The notes under the pieces are model-generated. The model saw nothing but the letters and a program-made list of their open reading frames with translations, was not told the origin of the DNA and ran no database searches. Of a stretch of 37,985 bases of DNA, positions 24,086 to 34,577 are shown piece after piece. Position 1 is the first letter of the stretch. Each line of letters starts with the position of its first letter. A program made the translations under genes and the position numbers. Source of the DNA: Terriglobia bacterium (GTDB taxonomy: Bacteria > Acidobacteriota > Terriglobia > UBA7540); NCBI GenBank assembly GCA_030038235.1, contig JASHPE010000216.1, forward strand, positions 1-37,985. The letters are read 5' to 3'.

Positions 24086-25105
24086 TCACGCTTCCGTTCT
24101 CAGGCCGACTTCGTGGCTCAGATAAATTCTCTTCACGATGTCCTCGATGGGCTCTTCTTGAACGAAAATATCCTGCACCTCAAGCGTGTTGACGAGATTC
24201 CGGATAACCTCGGCCGTGGAGTGCAGCTTGCGATCGAAGCGCATCACGTAAGTCAACTCATCAATGCGCTCGCACCGGATGCCGTCGCGTGAGACCAGAT
24301 CGAGGCGCGCCACCTGGGAGCGGTCCTTGAGGAAAAACTTCACCTGGTTGTACTCGGCCAGCCGGTCCTTCATCTCCGCGAGCGGCCCGTCAAAAAGAAC
24401 CTTGCCCTTATCGATCACGATGATCCGCCGGCACAGCTCCTCGATGTCGGCAAGGTCGTGCGTGGTCAGCAACACCGTGGTGCGATGCATGCGGTTCACT
24501 TCCTTCAGGAACTCGCGGATGCGGTCCTTGGCCACCACGTCGAGTCCGATGGTAGGCTCGTCGAGAAAAAGCAGCGGCGGATTGTGCAGCAGCGACGCAG
24601 CCAGATCGCAGCGCATGCGCTCGCCGAGGCTCAGCTTGCGCACGGGCGTGTGCAGGTAGTCCTGCACGTTGAGGATTTCGGAGAACAGGCCCAGGCGCTC
24701 GCGATAGTCCGCGTCGGAAATCTCATAAATCTCCTTGAGCAGCCGGAACGACTCCACCACCGCGATGTCCCACCAAAGCTGTGTCCGCTGGCCGAAGACT
24801 ACACCGAGATGACGCGTGTAGCGGCTGCGGTCCCGGTGAGGGACGAAGCCGTTCGCCACCAGGCGTCCGCCGCTCGGCACCAGAATGCCGGTCAGCATCT
24901 TGATGGTCGTCGACTTCCCTGCTCCGTTGGCGCCGATGTAGCCCACCATCTCGCCAGGCTCGATCGAGAACGAGATGTGGTCGACCGCATGGATGGTCAC
25001 GTACTCGCGCACAAACAGGTTCTGCAGCGCGCCCCAAACGCCCTCGCGGCGGCGAAAGCTGCGAAACTCCTTGGTGAGCTCCTCGACTTGGATCATCGGT
25101 GGCAT
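24086..25105 (-). CDS. ABC transporter ATPase (COG4586-like)
   Basis: A 339-residue ATP-binding subunit. Walker A GANGAGKST is at 58-66. The signature is LSLGE (158-162, a variant of LSGGQ), Walker B LLFLDEP is at 178-184, and the switch His is in 'LLTTHDLADIEELC'. The N-terminal extension 'VEELTKEFRSFRRREGVWGALQNLFVREYVTIHAVDHISF' and the phrase 'GVVFGQRTQLWWDIAVVESFRLLKEIY' are diagnostic of the COG4586 ATPase that works with COG4587/COG3694 permeases. Those permeases are at 2546-4340, same strand. The frame is open to 25345, but ATG 25105 (or 25096) starts the domain. It is divergent from the flavin monooxygenase. Confidence 0.88.
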   Translation of the reverse strand: MPPMIQVEELTKEFRSFRRREGVWGALQNLFVREYVTIHAVDHISFSIEPGEMVGYIGANGAGKSTTIKMLTGILVPSGGRLVANGFVPHRDRSRYTRHLGVVFGQRTQLWWDIAVVESFRLLKEIYEISDADYRERLGLFSEILNVQDYLHTPVRKLSLGERMRCDLAASLLHNPPLLFLDEPTIGLDVVAKDRIREFLKEVNRMHRTTVLLTTHDLADIEELCRRIIVIDKGKVLFDGPLAEMKDRLAEYNQVKFFLKDRSQVARLDLVSRDGIRCERIDELTYVMRFDRKLHSTAEVIRNLVNTLEVQDIFVQEEPIEDIVKRIYLSHEVGLRTEA

Positions 25106-25292
25106 GGGAAATAGGCGGCGGGCGACGGCAGCGCAACCGCGTTCTACATTGTAATAGACTCGTGCAGGACCGGCAGGATGCGCGGATCGAAACACCTTTT
25201 CGTGCTTGGGAGCCGGCAGCAGGCCCGCCACCTGATTCCAGATACAAAACGGCAATTCTATGGTACGTTCGAGCAACAATCTGGAGCGGACG

Positions 25293-26810
25293 ATGGCTGC
25301 GGAACGTTTCGACGTGTTGATCATGGGCGCGGGCTTGTCGGGCATCGGCGCGGCCTATCACCTGCAGAAACATTGCCCGAACAAGACCTACGCCATCATT
25401 GAGCAGCGCCAGCGAATCGGCGGGACTTGGGATCTGTTTCGCTATCCAGGCGTCCGGTCGGACTCCGACATGCTGACCATGGGCTATTCCTTCCGCCCCT
25501 GGACCAGCGCCCGGGCTATTGCCCCCGGCGACGACATTCGCAACTACATCACGGACACGGCGCGCGACGAGGGCATCGACCGGCACATCCGCTTCCGTCA
25601 CCGAATCGAGCGCGCAGCGTGGTCCTCCGAAGACGCGATATGGACGGTCACTGCATCGCGCCAGGAACCTGGCGGGCGCGAAACGCCAGTGACCTTCACC
25701 TGCAATTTTCTGCTCTCGTGCGCGGGCTATTACCGATATGGCTCCGGTTACTTGCCGGAGTTTCCGGACGTTGACCGCTTCACTGGCCGCGTCGTCCACC
25801 CGCAAGCCTGGCCCGATGATCTGGACTATGCCGGCAAGCGCGTGACCATCATCGGCAGCGGGGCGACAGCGGTAACGCTCCTGCCCGCGCTGGCCAGGAC
25901 CGCGGCCCACGTGACCATGCTGCAGCGGTCGCCCACCTATATCGTTTCCATGCCCGAGCAGGACAGGATCACCAATGCGCTGCGGCGTGTGTTGCCCAAC
26001 ACGTGGGCCTGCCGGCTCGGGCGCTGGAAGAATACGGCCTACATGATCTACGTTTACCAACTGGCGCAGCGCTTTCCGGATTTCGTGAAAGCCGGAATTA
26101 TCAAGATGATCCGCAAGGAACTGGGTCCCGAGTACGACGTGGCCACGCACTTTACCCCGCGCTACAATCCCTGGGAGCAGCGGCTGTGCCTGGTTCCGAA
26201 CTCCGATTTTTTTCGGGCGATCAAGGCGGGGCGAGCCAGCGTGGTCACCGGCCAGATCGAACGGTTCACGGAACGAGGCATGCGGCTGCAATCGGGGACC
26301 GAGATCGAAGCCGACATCGTGGTGACGGCGACGGGCCTGGTGTTGCAGGCTCTGGGCGGGGCAGATCTCGCGGTCGACGGACGCCGTGTGGATCTGGGCA
26401 AGACGCTCGCTTACAAAGGAGTGATGTTTTCGGGCGTGCCCAACCTGGCCGCGGTATTCGGTTACATCAACGCGTCCTGGACGCTCAAGGCAGACCTCAT
26501 CAGTACATACGTATGCCGGCTCTTGAATCTCATGGACCGGAAAGACGCCCGCCAGGTCACGCCCCGGAATGGACATGAAACGGCGGTCGCGAACTTCGTG
26601 GAGAAATTCACGCCGGGCTATATGCAGCGCGCGGTCGATAAGTGGCCAAAGCAGGGTGCGAAGACGCCCTGGCGGGTTCATCAGGACTACATTCGCGACA
26701 TGGTGAGCCTGAAGTGGAGCCCTGTAGACGACGGAGCCCTGGAGTTCTCGAGCCCGGCGAAAGCTCCTGCGAAACCCATTCTGGCCCAAGCAACCGGAGC
26801 CGCGAAATAG
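25293..26810 (+). CDS. Flavin-containing monooxygenase (EthA/Baeyer-Villiger-like)
   Basis: A 505-residue FAD/NADPH enzyme. The FAD-binding Rossmann motif GAGLSG is at 12-17, followed by 'RIGGTWDLFRYPGVRSDSDM'. The Baeyer-Villiger/FMO fingerprint F-x-G-x-x-x-H-x-x-x-W is at 163-173 (FTGRVVHPQAW). The second NADPH Rossmann motif is 'VTIIGSGATAVTLL'. The layout and 'YPGVRSDSDM' place it with EthA-type enzymes, which oxidise ketones or sulfur compounds. The substrate cannot be predicted. ATG 25293 follows GGAG; ATG 25260 is in frame upstream without such a site. It stands alone. Confidence 0.9.
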   Translation: MAAERFDVLIMGAGLSGIGAAYHLQKHCPNKTYAIIEQRQRIGGTWDLFRYPGVRSDSDMLTMGYSFRPWTSARAIAPGDDIRNYITDTARDEGIDRHIRFRHRIERAAWSSEDAIWTVTASRQEPGGRETPVTFTCNFLLSCAGYYRYGSGYLPEFPDVDRFTGRVVHPQAWPDDLDYAGKRVTIIGSGATAVTLLPALARTAAHVTMLQRSPTYIVSMPEQDRITNALRRVLPNTWACRLGRWKNTAYMIYVYQLAQRFPDFVKAGIIKMIRKELGPEYDVATHFTPRYNPWEQRLCLVPNSDFFRAIKAGRASVVTGQIERFTERGMRLQSGTEIEADIVVTATGLVLQALGGADLAVDGRRVDLGKTLAYKGVMFSGVPNLAAVFGYINASWTLKADLISTYVCRLLNLMDRKDARQVTPRNGHETAVANFVEKFTPGYMQRAVDKWPKQGAKTPWRVHQDYIRDMVSLKWSPVDDGALEFSSPAKAPAKPILAQATGAAK

Positions 26811-28608: not shown

Positions 28609-30633
28609 ATGAGACCTTCAAGCGCACGGGCGCTCATAGTATTTGTGTTATTTGCCTGGCTGGGGCTCAGCTTGAGCGCCAGCCCGCTGGCGGCACAGGA
28701 AAATGGAGGTTTGATCCAAGCCCCCGCCCCCAGCACGCGGACTGCCCAGTTTGCGCCGTCCGGCGGACTCGCGCCTGGGGCCACGACGATGGATTACAGC
28801 CGCAGTCATGCCTTCCCGAACATCCTGGCGCCGTATACCTTCGAGCCCGTTCCGGAACCCAGCATGAACAACTCGCAACTCCTTCACTCGCTGATGACCA
28901 GCGGCAAGCTCGAACTCTCGCTCGACGACGCGATCGCGCTGGCGCTTGAGAACAATCTCACTATCGCCGTGCAACGATTCAATATCCCCTTCGCCCAACT
29001 CGACTACTTGCGGACCAAGGCGGGCGGCGCTCCGCGCGGCGTGGCCGGAGCCTTCATCTCGAACTCGCTTCAAGCCGGCGCGCTCGGCTCGGGACTCAGC
29101 AGTTCGGGCAGCGGCGGCAGCAGCGGCGGTGGCGGGGCTCTCGGCGGCGGCGGCCCCATCAATGAGGGGTCCATTTCCTGCTGTGATCCCGTCGCTGGCT
29201 TTAACTACGGCTGGACCTACAACGTCAGCCCGCTGAACTACGAAACGGTCAACCTCGCGCCGACGGTCGGTACCCACCTGTTCAGCATGAACAGTTACTT
29301 TGGTCAGGGGTTTTTGACGGGAACAAGTTATGTGGTGGGTTTGGGCGGTAGCCGTGAGAGCAGCACCTCGCCTGGCGTTTTGTATGATCCCGAAGTGCCC
29401 ACGGGCCTGGGCTTTGGCATCGACCAGCAGCTCCTCAACGGTTTCGGCTATCGCGCCAACGCGAAATTCATTCGCATCGCTCAGAACGACCTGAAATTCG
29501 CCGACGCTGCCTTCCGCCTCCAAGTCAGCACGACCATAGCGCAGGTCGTCAATGACTATTACACGTTGCTGTATGATCGCCAGAACGTGGGGGTCGCCCA
29601 GGAAGCTGTCAATTACTCCCAACACCTGCTTGATGACAACAAGAAACAAGTGGAAATCGGGACGCTGGCGCCCATCGAGGTGGTGCGGGCGGAATCGGAG
29701 CTGGCCACTGATCAACAAACCCTCATCGTGGCGCAGACCACCCTGAAGCAGCAGGAACAGGTTCTGAAAACCGAGCTTTCCAAACAAGTCACACCTGACT
29801 TGGCGGCGATCGAGGTTGATCCGACCGACAAATTTCCTGACTCGGAAGCCGAGAGCGTCCCTCCGGTCGAGCAAGCCCTCGAGCTCGCGTACCAGAATCG
29901 TCCCGAAATGACCGAGGCCAATCTGAACCTCGCCAACCAGGACATCACGCTGAAGGCGGTCCGCAACGCGCTTCTGCCCACCTTGACGGCTTACGCCAGC
30001 TACACGCCCTCGGGCCTTTCGGGAACCCTCATCTGCGAGCCGGCGGTCAATCTGTTGGCTTGTCCTAACGGCGCTCCTATCGGGATCGTAAGTAGGGGCG
30101 GGATTGCACAGTCCCTGACCGGGCTTTTTCAGGGCAAATACCCGTACTACTCATATGGGATTAACTTGCAGATTCCCATTCGTAACCGCACCGAACAGGC
30201 CGACTCTGCCAGAGCGCTCTTTGAGCAGCGGCAGTTACAGACGCAGCTCCAGGTGCAGAAGAATACCATTGCCCAGGACGTGCGTAACGCCGAGATCGCC
30301 ATAACCCAGGCGAAGGCACAGATCAATGCCACCATCAAGGCCTCAGACTTGGCCCGGCAGACGCTCGACGCCGATCAGAAAAAGTTCCAACTGGGCGAGT
30401 CCACCACGTTTCAGTTGATCCAGGACCAGCGCGACTTGACCACGGCCGAAGGCAACCAGGCCAAGGCTTATCAAACGTTCTCTGCCGCTCTGACGCAGTT
30501 CAGCCAGGCCACCGGCACCACGCTCGACCGGTATCACGTTGAGATGGGCGACGCCAAGATGGGCAGGGTCACGCATCTTCCGAATATTCCGGGTGCTGCA
30601 CCCGTGCAGGCAGGCGCGAACCTATCCCAGTAA
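28609..30633 (+). CDS. TolC-family outer membrane efflux protein
   Basis: A 674-residue secreted protein with a signal peptide (MRPSSARALIVFVLFAWLGL, cleavage after LAAQ region). Two OEP repeats are visible. Each has 'LSLDDAIALALENNLTIAVQ' or 'VEQALELAYQNRPEMTEANL', and long helices with 'LQVSTTIAQVVNDYYTLLYDRQNV' and 'IAQDVRNAEIAITQAKAQI'. A beta-barrel plus periplasmic coiled-coil trimer forming an exit duct is expected. A Gly/Ser-rich insert lies near residues 163-190 in the first half. No membrane-fusion protein gene is adjacent, so its inner-membrane partner is unknown. It ends in an intrinsic terminator at 30648. Confidence 0.9.
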   Translation: MRPSSARALIVFVLFAWLGLSLSASPLAAQENGGLIQAPAPSTRTAQFAPSGGLAPGATTMDYSRSHAFPNILAPYTFEPVPEPSMNNSQLLHSLMTSGKLELSLDDAIALALENNLTIAVQRFNIPFAQLDYLRTKAGGAPRGVAGAFISNSLQAGALGSGLSSSGSGGSSGGGGALGGGGPINEGSISCCDPVAGFNYGWTYNVSPLNYETVNLAPTVGTHLFSMNSYFGQGFLTGTSYVVGLGGSRESSTSPGVLYDPEVPTGLGFGIDQQLLNGFGYRANAKFIRIAQNDLKFADAAFRLQVSTTIAQVVNDYYTLLYDRQNVGVAQEAVNYSQHLLDDNKKQVEIGTLAPIEVVRAESELATDQQTLIVAQTTLKQQEQVLKTELSKQVTPDLAAIEVDPTDKFPDSEAESVPPVEQALELAYQNRPEMTEANLNLANQDITLKAVRNALLPTLTAYASYTPSGLSGTLICEPAVNLLACPNGAPIGIVSRGGIAQSLTGLFQGKYPYYSYGINLQIPIRNRTEQADSARALFEQRQLQTQLQVQKNTIAQDVRNAEIAITQAKAQINATIKASDLARQTLDADQKKFQLGESTTFQLIQDQRDLTTAEGNQAKAYQTFSAALTQFSQATGTTLDRYHVEMGDAKMGRVTHLPNIPGAAPVQAGANLSQ

Positions 30634-30647
30634 CACGCATACGCCAG

Positions 30648-30680
30648 GGCACGCCCCGCGCGTGCCTTTCTCTTTTCTTT
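30648..30680 (+). terminator. Intrinsic terminator of the TolC-like gene
   Basis: GGCACGC (30648-30654), 5-base loop, GCGTGCC (30660-30666), followed by the T-rich tail TTTCTCTTTTCTTT. It starts 14 bases after the stop codon and separates this gene from the ABC ATPase. Confidence 0.75.
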
Positions 30681-30819: not shown

Positions 30820-31752
30820 ATGAGCGCGAAGAACGGATCTGCGATTGTCCAGGTGAGCGGCCTTCGCAAGAACTACGGCGACGTGGAGGCCATCCGCGGC
30901 ATCAGTTTCGAGATCCGTGAAGGCGAGGTCTTCGGGCTGCTCGGGCCGAACGGCGCCGGCAAGACCAGCACCATCGAAATTCTGGAAGGACTGCGCCAGC
31001 CCGACGCCGGCACGGTGCGCGTGTGCGGCCTGGAGCCTGCGCACGAAAGCCAGCAATTGAAGCAGCGAATCGGCGCTCAGCTTCAAAACACCGTCCTCCC
31101 TGACAAGATCACCGTCGAAGAAGCGCTTCGCCTCTTCGCCAGCTTTTACGATCGCACGGTCGCGGTGGATCAGCTGATGGAGCGATTCGGCCTGGCGGAG
31201 AAGCGCCGCGCCTACTACGAGACACTCTCCGGAGGGCAGAAGCAGCGCCTGGCCCTGGCGCTGGCGCTCGTCAACACGCCGGAGCTGGTTTTGCTCGATG
31301 AACCCACGGCGGGTCTCGATGCCATGGTGCGCCGCGACATCTACGCTCTGATCGAACAATTGCGCGCTGAGCACCGCACTGTCCTGCTCACCACGCATTA
31401 CATCGAGGAAGCGGAACGGCTTTGCGACCGCGTGGCCATTGTGGATCACGGCCTGATTGCCGCCATCGGCACGCCGCGCGAGCTGGTCCAGAAATCCGGC
31501 AAAGGCGCGCGCATCGAGGTCCGGCTGGAGAAAACCATCGCTCCTGAACGGCTGCGGACGCTGGACGCCGTGCTCGACTGCGCCGAACGTGACGGAGCTT
31601 ACTTCCTTCGCGTCGACCCTGTGGCCAAAGCCGTGGTCGCCCTGGTGCGACTGCTCGAGGCCGAAGGCAATACGCTGGTGGACCTGCACATCACTCGTCC
31701 CTCGCTCGAGGATGTCTTTGTGGAGATGACCGGACGATCCCTCGAGGATTGA
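30820..31752 (+). CDS. ABC transporter ATPase (DrrA-type)
   Basis: A 310-residue ATP-binding subunit. Walker A GPNGAGKT is at 42-49, the signature LSGGQKQR at 137-144, Walker B LVLLDEP at 157-163 and the switch His at 194 in 'LLTTHYIEEAERLC'. The C-terminal 'TLVDLHITRPSLEDVFVEMTGRSLED' is the DrrA/CcmA-type tail. Such ATPases drive two-gene ABC-2 exporters, and the next gene begins with the matching permease. 67 bases separate the two genes, so they form an operon. The substrate is unknown. Confidence 0.93.
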   Translation: MSAKNGSAIVQVSGLRKNYGDVEAIRGISFEIREGEVFGLLGPNGAGKTSTIEILEGLRQPDAGTVRVCGLEPAHESQQLKQRIGAQLQNTVLPDKITVEEALRLFASFYDRTVAVDQLMERFGLAEKRRAYYETLSGGQKQRLALALALVNTPELVLLDEPTAGLDAMVRRDIYALIEQLRAEHRTVLLTTHYIEEAERLCDRVAIVDHGLIAAIGTPRELVQKSGKGARIEVRLEKTIAPERLRTLDAVLDCAERDGAYFLRVDPVAKAVVALVRLLEAEGNTLVDLHITRPSLEDVFVEMTGRSLED

Positions 31753-31818
31753 CAAGTCCGCTCGGCGGGGATCGAGAGCGGATCGAAGCCGGTTGGCTGG
31801 GGAATTCAGGAGACGACG

Positions 31819-34467
31819 ATGGCGGCAATCCGAATTGCGCTGCTGAACATCCGGCTCGCGATGCGAACCAAGGTGGCGCTCTTCTTCACCTTCATTTTCC
31901 CGCTGATCTTCCTGTTCGTTTACGGGGGTATTTTTGCCCACGACAGCCCCGCCGGCATGGCCTTCCTGTTCGGACCTGTCATCGTGTTGCAGGTGATCGG
32001 CAGCTCGCTGTGGGGTCTCGGCATGCGGTCCGTTATGGAACGGGAGCGCGGCAGCCTGCGTCGTTATCGGCTGGCGCCGATCGGCGCTGGAGCCATGGTG
32101 GTCAGCAGCATGCTCGCCGGCTATCTTCTACTGATACCAACCGTGGCCGTGATGCTGCTGAGCGCGCGGGTGTTCTTTCACATGCCGATGACGATCGGCA
32201 TCCTGGATCTGTGGATTCTCGTCACGGCTGGAAGCTTTGCCTTTGCCGGTTTCGGACTCACCATCGCCAGCGTGGCCAATACCATGCAAGAGGCCCAGGT
32301 GTACAACAACATCGCCTTCTTCCCCCTGCTGTTTCTCTCCGGCGCCACCATTCCGCTGGGAGCCCTGCCGCATTGGTTGCAATCTGTGGCCGCTTTCCTG
32401 CCCGCCACTTATCTCGTGAGCGCCTTCCAGGGCGTGATGTCCCAGTCGGAACCGCTTATCCGCCACATCCCGGAGTTGTTGGCCCTGGTCATCTCCGGCG
32501 TCTTCGGCCTGGCGTTTGCCTGGAAGCTCTTCCGCTGGGAAAAGGATGAAAGGATCAACCGATCCGACAAGCTCTGGGCGCTCGTATTTCTGCTTCCGTT
32601 TCTCGCCATGGGGACGTGGATGAACGCAAACGGCTCCGCCATGGCCGCCTGGTCGCGGACGCTCAACAGTCTCGACAATTCCGATCAATCCCACAGCTCC
32701 GGCTCGGCGGCAAAGACGACGGGGAACGGGCCCTTTGCGATCGAGCACGTGCGGGTGTTCGACGGCGCGCAGGTGAGTCCAGCCGACACGGTGGTCGTGC
32801 AAGACGGCAAGATCGTGGCTGTAGGCTCCGGCCTCCAACCGCCGGCGGGAGCGCAGGTGGTTGACGGGACTGGAGACACCCTGTTGCCAGGCTTCATCGA
32901 CGCTCATGTGCACGTTCTCGACCGCGACGCCTTGAGACAGTCGCTGGTCTTCGGCGTGACTACCGATCTGGATATGTTCATGGACTGGCACCTGGCTCAG
33001 CAGATCCGGAAGGAGCAGGCCGCCGGACGGGACCTCGACTCCGCGGACTTGCGTTCGGCGGGCACGCTGACCACCGCACCGGGCGGTCACGGCACGGAAT
33101 ACGGTCTCAAGATTCCCACCCTCACTTCGCCTGAGGACGCCCAAGCCTTCGTCGACGCGCGCATCGCGGAAGGGTCCGACTATATCAAGATCATTTACGA
33201 CGACGGCAGCGCTTATGGCATGCACTTTCCCACTCTGAGCCCCGCAACGATGGCTGCGGTGGTCGAGGCCGCGCATCGCCGAGGCAAATTGGCGGTGGCT
33301 CACATTGGGTCTTTGCAGGGAGCGCGCGATGCCATCAATGCCGGCGTTGACGGATTGATGCACCTCTTTATCGACCGCGCGCCTGACCCGGACTTCGGGC
33401 GCTTCGTCGCTGAGCATCACGCGTTCGTGGTCCCAACGCTCAGCGTGCTTAAGAGTGTGTGCGGCACGCCCAGCGGGGAGTCGCTCATCACCGATCCCCA
33501 AGTCGGTCCCTACCTGCCCGAATCTGCCCTTGCCAACCTCAAGCAGAGTTTTCCTCAACATCCTGGCGAGCACTGCGATTACGACGCTGCCCCGGCCAGC
33601 ATTCGTCTGCTGCAGGCCGCCGGCGTGGTGATTCTGGCGGGCACGGATTCGCCCAATCCGGGCACCACGTTTGGCGCCAGCCTGCATCGTGAGCTCGAAT
33701 TGCTTGTCGAAGCCGGCATGACGCCGCAAGCGGCTCTGGTGGCGGCGACCTCAGCCCCGGCGCACGCCTTTCATCTCGACGATCGCGGACGCATCGCGCC
33801 GGGTCTGCGCGCCGATCTGGTGTTGGTGAAAGGCGATCCGACTGCCGATATCAAAGCGACCCGCGACATCGCGGCGGTATGGAAGCTGGGAGTTCAGGTG
33901 GACCGCGAGGCCTGGCGGGCGCAGGTGGAGAAGGCGAACAAGACAGCCGCCACTGCCCCGCAGGGTTCAGAGTCAGGTCTGGTGAGCGACTTCGACGAGG
34001 GTACGCCGACTGCGAGCTTCGGCTCCGGCTGGGTGAAGTCCTCGGATTCGATGATGGGCGGCAAGTCGGTGGTTGATTTCAAGGTCGTTGAGGGCGGCGC
34101 GCAGAACAGTAAAGGCTCGCTCGAAATCGACGGTGAGATTCTGCCCGGCTACGCATTCCCCTGGGCGGGCGCGATGTTCATGCCGGGCGCGCAGCCGTTC
34201 GCCCCGGCCAATCTGTCGTCGAAGAAAGCGATCAGCTTCTGGGCGAAAGGCGATGGGAAGACTTACCGGGTAATGATGTTCGCTGCCAGCATCGGGTCCA
34301 TTCCGGCGTGGCAGAGCTTCGTGGCGGGCCCGGACTGGAGACACTACAGCTTGCCCTTCGCTTCGTTCCGGGGTGTGGACGGCCATGATTTAGAGGGCCT
34401 GTTGTTCTCCGGCGGCCCGGAGCCGGGCAAATTCTCCTTTCAGATCGACGACGTGCAGTTTCAGTGA
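31819..34467 (+). CDS. ABC-2 permease / amidohydrolase / CIA30 triple fusion
   Basis: One uninterrupted 882-codon frame holds three units. Residues 1-240 are a complete DrrB-type ABC-2 permease with six spans and 'LPLLFLSGATIPLGALPHWLQ'. A seventh span at about 252-270, preceded by basic residues (RINRSDK), would place what follows in the periplasm. Residues 306-710 are an amidohydrolase with metal ligands in 'GFIDAHVH' (His363, His365), Lys457, His495, His515 and Asp610. Residues 720-882 match CIA30-type beta-sandwich domains ('FDEGTPTASFGSGWVKSSDSMMGGKS', 'ISFWAKGDGKTYRVMMFA'). CAGGAG precedes ATG 31819. The upstream ATPase should energise the permease part. The linked hydrolase substrate is unknown. 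Confidence 0.88.
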   Translation: MAAIRIALLNIRLAMRTKVALFFTFIFPLIFLFVYGGIFAHDSPAGMAFLFGPVIVLQVIGSSLWGLGMRSVMERERGSLRRYRLAPIGAGAMVVSSMLAGYLLLIPTVAVMLLSARVFFHMPMTIGILDLWILVTAGSFAFAGFGLTIASVANTMQEAQVYNNIAFFPLLFLSGATIPLGALPHWLQSVAAFLPATYLVSAFQGVMSQSEPLIRHIPELLALVISGVFGLAFAWKLFRWEKDERINRSDKLWALVFLLPFLAMGTWMNANGSAMAAWSRTLNSLDNSDQSHSSGSAAKTTGNGPFAIEHVRVFDGAQVSPADTVVVQDGKIVAVGSGLQPPAGAQVVDGTGDTLLPGFIDAHVHVLDRDALRQSLVFGVTTDLDMFMDWHLAQQIRKEQAAGRDLDSADLRSAGTLTTAPGGHGTEYGLKIPTLTSPEDAQAFVDARIAEGSDYIKIIYDDGSAYGMHFPTLSPATMAAVVEAAHRRGKLAVAHIGSLQGARDAINAGVDGLMHLFIDRAPDPDFGRFVAEHHAFVVPTLSVLKSVCGTPSGESLITDPQVGPYLPESALANLKQSFPQHPGEHCDYDAAPASIRLLQAAGVVILAGTDSPNPGTTFGASLHRELELLVEAGMTPQAALVAATSAPAHAFHLDDRGRIAPGLRADLVLVKGDPTADIKATRDIAAVWKLGVQVDREAWRAQVEKANKTAATAPQGSESGLVSDFDEGTPTASFGSGWVKSSDSMMGGKSVVDFKVVEGGAQNSKGSLEIDGEILPGYAFPWAGAMFMPGAQPFAPANLSSKKAISFWAKGDGKTYRVMMFAASIGSIPAWQSFVAGPDWRHYSLPFASFRGVDGHDLEGLLFSGGPEPGKFSFQIDDVQFQ

Positions 34468-34543: not shown

Positions 34544-34577
34544 CATCGTCATTCCCGCGAAAGCGGGAATGACGATG
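34544..34577. terminator. Perfect 15-bp hairpin with GAAA loop between convergent genes
   Basis: CATCGTCATTCCCGC, loop GAAA, then the exact complement. It lies between the fusion gene (plus) and acsA (minus) and may end transcription in both directions. The half AGGGACATCGTCATT occurs twice at an 18-bp period (34521 and 34539), and GCAATGACGATG follows at about 34585, so the palindrome looks like a dispersed repeat unit. Confidence 0.65.

Follow-up and report, generated by a model that had tools for sequence, protein, structure and literature searches.

The window analysed here, 37,985 nucleotides of contig JASHPE010000216.1 (assembly GCA_030038235.1) from a Terriglobia soil bacterium whose genus we label g1, encodes an ABC-2 permease that runs on, within a single polypeptide, into an amidohydrolase (AMH) and a CIA30-type beta domain. 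On balance we lean towards the view that this protein and its ATPase form an exporter equipped with a periplasmic, carboxypeptidase-like hydrolase head, which would act on a compound that is either exported or incoming.

The fusion gene occupies 31819-34467 on the forward strand and translates as one stop-free frame of 882 aa, with a good AGGAG ribosome-binding site (31808-31812, +) ending 6 nt upstream of the start codon (ATG, 31819). Residues 1-245 (31819-32553, +) comprise the permease (PF01061, PF12698), with six hydropathy spans at residues 21-238 and an ABC2_membrane match at residues 11-207 (E 3e-20) scoring 73 bits against the PF01061 cut-off of 26.9. A seventh span at approximately residues 252-270 (32572-32628, +) is followed by a polar, Ser/Asn/Gln-rich and putatively periplasmic linker (residues 271-302; 32629-32724, +), the amidohydrolase domain (residues 303-700; 32725-33918, +) and the CIA30-type domain (residues 718-882; 33970-34464, +). 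The Amidohydro_1 match (PF01979) covers residues 354-692 with E 1e-24, above its curated cut-off, and the CIA30 match (PF08547) covers residues 736-851 with E 1e-6 and 29.1 bits against a gathering cut-off of 24. Both the unbroken joining of the three parts and the six-span architecture of the permease, as first described from the letters alone, are confirmed by these data. In the AlphaFold model pLDDT exceeds 90 across nearly all of residues 303-882 and is around 35-45 in the linker; over the permease, where the alignment is shallow, the model cannot be relied on. A genome search found no CIA30 protein besides the fusion protein (32.9 bits for its domain), and among the roughly ten ABC2_membrane proteins of the genome the fusion has by far the longest open frame, of 904 aa, with the others at 414 aa or less.

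The probability that two adjacent genes were joined here by a sequencing or assembly error is negligible, even though both sequences with the window-type fusion come from draft metagenome-type assemblies. The second of these, from another genome of the genus (G001, contig JASHQD010000796), carries this fusion, likewise in frame, over residues 1-867, up to the contig end, with 88% identity and with the same order of outer-membrane factor, ATPase and fusion. At a dS of about 0.7 between the two, the permease has a dN/dS of 0.057, the seventh span with the linker 0.165, the amidohydrolase 0.106 and the CIA30 domain 0.046, and the alignment has one gap in all, a single residue long, in the linker. 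The shared, unbroken frame, together with purifying selection to either side of the junction, therefore disposes of an assembly artefact, and many more fusions are known in other genera (see below). Thus the hidden stop or frameshift that the sequence-only reading had named beforehand as fatal to its interpretation is absent. Its other reservation, that related genomes might always have two separate genes, holds for far relatives only: near relatives either have no amidohydrolase or have it fused.

The exporter's ATPase, of 310 aa (30820-31752, +; PF00005, E 6e-32), lies 66 nt upstream of the fusion gene, the partnership characteristic of an ABC-2 exporter. An ATPase adjoins the permease in nearly all permease relatives examined, these ATPases being 45-92% identical. 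Both genomes of the genus also have, farther upstream and on the strand of the ATPase, a TolC-type outer-membrane factor (28609-30633, + in the window; 674 aa; PF02321, E 4e-32), the counterpart in G001 being 85% identical. It could possibly provide the outer-membrane exit, and is perhaps a transcription unit of its own; a terminator-like hairpin at 30646-30668 separates it from the ATPase, a weak indication given that the scan detects such sites no more often than in shuffled sequence. Downstream lies an acetyl-CoA synthetase-like gene. Between these neighbours there is no two-component system adjoining the ABC genes, and no informative biosynthetic neighbourhood surrounds the fusion. Elsewhere in the window, frame 24089-25354 on the reverse strand encodes a further ABC ATPase, 31% identical to that of the exporter, and is overlapped by a flavin-monooxygenase-like frame (25260-26810, +). 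Just 3' of the fusion gene, amid imperfect direct repeats, is a perfect 28-nt palindrome (CGTCATTCCCGCGAAAGCGGGAATGACG, 34547-34574), the exact form of which occurs at just one other site in the genome.

The seventh span had been read as the signal peptide of a formerly separate secreted enzyme, an idea that the relatives of the permease contradict. The same span (KLWALVFLLPFLAMGTW) is found in bare permeases of family f6 and elsewhere (for example G056, G115 and G094), which end some 25-50 residues beyond it with nothing attached. It is also found in two genera of the window's own family (g2 and g3) and in family f15, in which permeases 56-67% identical to that of the window continue through the span directly into a CIA30 domain; the close relatives G002 and G003 are without amidohydrolase. 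It follows that the span belongs to the permease clade itself, and the window linker contains no second hydrophobic stretch that might represent a signal-peptide relic. In the window protein it falls slightly below the hydropathy threshold that its relatives exceed, and AlphaFold places a low-confidence helix (248-284) over it. Such a span would pre-adapt the C-terminus of the permease to a location on the outer side, and residues 303-882 presumably lie on the periplasmic side. The outside placement of the enzyme in the sequence-only reading, unlike its signal peptide, is supported by the positive-inside loops, the hydrophobic seventh span and the signal-peptide-like N-termini of the closest unfused enzymes.

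In agreement with the sequence-only reading, the amidohydrolase keeps all six metal ligands (H363, H365, K457, H495, H515 and D610) in the ligand alignment, and this HxH, Lys, His, His, Asp set in a TIM barrel, along with the fold match, places it in the binuclear amidohydrolase superfamily. Foldseek matches it to 2p9b and 3mtw (E ~1e-28), the closest folds (E 1e-20 to 1e-28) being the L-Lys/L-Arg carboxypeptidase Cc2672, prolidases and the ochratoxin amidohydrolases ADH3 and LlADH. Judged by predicted fold and by sequence, it would belong with COG1228-like carboxypeptidases, prolidases, N-acyl-amino-acid hydrolases and ochratoxin amidohydrolases, and its likely target is therefore an amide bond such as occurs in N-acyl amino acids or dipeptides. 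It is not identifiable as a Xaa-Pro dipeptidase by the NF051886 equivalog, for which it scores 105 bits against a cut-off of 500.

The closest amidohydrolases are unfused AMH-CIA30 proteins of Acidobacteriota and Myxococcota, 43-61% identical and with signal-peptide-like N-termini, including one (at locus L037) that starts with a signal-peptide-like span. AMH-CIA30 matches are present in 37 of 396 sampled Acidobacteriota genomes, that of the window included. In the tree the window enzyme is nested within the secreted AMH-CIA30 clade with support of 98, and this family is its source. Among the approximately 33 such loci examined (seven from one family, and some with clipped flanks), eight directly adjoin an ABC ATPase, an ABC-2 permease, a HisKA_3-type histidine kinase and a NarL-type regulator. 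These five-gene clusters come from several Acidobacteriota families; the order is ATPase, permease, AMH-CIA30, kinase, regulator in seven loci of other families (L162, L168, L169, L170, L171, L178 and L180), with the AMH gene first in L037. One further locus has the kinase and regulator only. Of the approximately 33 genes, 25 are without an ABC neighbour of this type and the operon permeases are far from that of the window, both of which count against the hydrolase head that we prefer. Derivation of the fusion from such an operon through loss of a stop codon was considered, and is unlikely because of this same distance between the permeases. The CIA30 domains of the window protein and of G002 cluster together inside AMH-CIA30 diversity in a weak tree (support 96/54), a hint of amidohydrolase loss in G002 rather than gain in g1. 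Directly beside one AMH-CIA30 gene, in G427, lies a gene for a 295-aa CIA30 protein (L137:3590-4474); its domain is sister to that of its neighbour, probably reflecting local duplication.

The combination seen in the window, which had appeared isolated, turns out to have many counterparts. A search across the class, with 399 genomes sampled, found full-length fusions of permease and amidohydrolase in one frame in 48, of which 47 belong to family f5 and one to f8; in about 24 more f5 genomes the match ends inside the enzyme and a few have the permease bare. In f5 the permease is almost always fused. A triple permease-AMH-CIA30 fusion of 906 aa is present in a genome of another class (G732, L182:6752-9469), followed by a histidine kinase and, farther along, a regulator-like frame. 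The fused enzymes of f5 and f8 form their own clade, to which the G732 fusion is likely sister (90). Forcing them into one clade with the window enzyme is rejected (log-likelihood difference 75, AU p 6e-5), which excludes a single origin of all the fused amidohydrolases: an amidohydrolase has therefore been joined to this type of permease at least twice. The genomic context in f5 (purH, an S9 peptidase, fmt, rsmB) is uninformative as a guide to substrate.

Within f5 and f8 the enzyme half can be followed from complete metal sites to remnants lacking the barrel (loci L051, L086-L105 and L119). Of 22 aligned fusions, eight keep all ligands, ten are without the middle of the barrel and its K, H and H, three are of full length but with most ligands lost, and one has only the second H changed, to Y. 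Hydrolysis is thus not needed for the role of the fused head in those 14. What persists is mainly the outer strands of the beta-sandwich and the final segment of the barrel. The remnants are nevertheless under purifying selection (dN/dS 0.18-0.23), and the permease tree places degenerate forms in at least three to four lineages. In a model of one remnant the membrane part is better than in that of the window protein, and the match to the amidohydrolase fold is loose (rmsd mostly 9-14 Å).

Under the preferred reading, the gene pair at 30820-34467 would be a DrrAB/NodIJ-like ABC-2 exporter whose permease bears its own periplasmic hydrolase. The six spans would form the export channel and the seventh would take the C-terminus across the membrane, where the secreted-type AMH-CIA30 module, elsewhere a separate enzyme and sometimes beside an ABC exporter and two-component system, would be attached. 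The enzyme would cut an amide bond of the pump's compound. It might disarm a toxin entering the cell, peptide-like or an N-acyl amino acid, which the pump would expel as well, or it might trim a product on its way out; of the two, detoxification seems the likelier. The two-component systems recurring at unfused loci, along with the kinase at the G732 fusion, suggest, by analogy with LnrJK-LnrLMN, that resistance might be inducible. The CIA30 domain may, at a guess, bind glycan or envelope. Coupling of the enzyme to export, already proposed by the sequence-only reading, is favoured by the independent fusions and the recurrent operons; its catalytic activity and a substrate common to enzyme and pump are what we infer.

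A non-catalytic head finds its best support in the decay series. The extracytoplasmic domain could be mainly a docking, gating or ligand-binding structure, comparable to pseudoenzyme domains derived from enzymes, with catalysis optional or a relic, and the 14 fusions with lost ligands or barrel middle, the selection on their remnants, their occurrence in several lineages and the fusion of CIA30 by itself in g2, g3 and f15 would all fit. The truncation or divergence of the enzyme in around a third of f5 fusions equally counts against a hydrolase head, as does its absence from the close relatives G002 and G003. We nonetheless think this fairly unlikely for the window protein, which has all ligands and a dN/dS of 0.106 in its enzyme and comes from a different, catalytically intact family; even in f5 and f8, at least eight fusions retain every ligand. 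The non-catalytic role may well hold for f5 even with the window protein active. Quite improbable, in our estimation, is a surface enzyme digesting environmental dipeptides or N-acyl amino acids, for which the permease is only an anchor and the pump unrelated. It would suit the closest solved relatives, which are broad dipeptidase/carboxypeptidase-type enzymes, and the similarity of CIA30 to carbohydrate-binding folds (CBM_11 matches are weak), but random anchoring would not be expected to produce independent fusions to the same permease type or recurrent adjacency to ABC exporters, and the natural partner of a scavenger is an importer, not an ABC-2 exporter. An anti-phage role was also considered and dropped, the fused protein having no match in PADLOC.

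A broader proposal, tentative and somewhat short of probable, is that hydrolase-headed ABC-2 exporters are a class evolved by convergence: the seven-span permease clade would have repeatedly gained extracytoplasmic heads (CIA30, the f5/f8 amidohydrolase and the AMH-CIA30 module of the window genus), with the enzyme head turning, in several lineages, into a conserved pseudoenzyme that recognises or gates the exported compound. What an ABC-2 exporter carries is, as a rule, guessed. Repeated attachment of a hydrolase of known chemical class would narrow the substrate of this pump to compounds containing an amide bond or something like it, and residues 303-882 offer a soluble handle for finding it. 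The series from intact to barrel-less forms within one family is a natural experiment in the conversion of an enzyme to an accessory domain of a transporter and, since some f5 homologues come from genomes that are closed or almost so, it may be feasible to test them in laboratory strains.

Each part of the protein is from a known family, and the combination is without description in the open literature searched: nothing relevant was found there for CIA30 with amidohydrolase or for an ABC-2-amidohydrolase fusion. ABC-2 permeases fused to M1 aminopeptidase also unite permease and hydrolase in one chain, with a peptidase fold unrelated to the window amidohydrolase; our literature search found no paper on them. 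Exporters of the DrrAB/NodIJ type similarly pair a single ATPase gene with a single ABC-2 permease gene behind it, but lack the seventh span and the two extracytoplasmic domains. The best matches of the ATPase are the drrA and nodI models and the best ABC match of the permease is drrB, all below curated NCBIfam cut-offs (259 against 312 bits for drrA, 50 against 223 for drrB). The LnrJK-LnrLMN system of Bacillus subtilis, in which a two-component system beside an ABC transporter confers linearmycin/polyene resistance (PMC7472640), resembles in gene arrangement the five-gene operons with unfused AMH-CIA30; it has no hydrolase, and the window locus no adjoining kinase or regulator. COG1228-type amidohydrolases (Cc2672, Xaa-Pro dipeptidase/prolidases, ADH3, LlADH) share the fold and the HxH/K/H/H/D ligands of the window enzyme, which is only ~25% identical to them and is fused to a transporter and CIA30. 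Closest of all are the secreted AMH-CIA30 proteins first found here, which have the two domains in the same order as the window protein and among which it nests, but which are encoded by separate genes and start with a signal-peptide-like segment.
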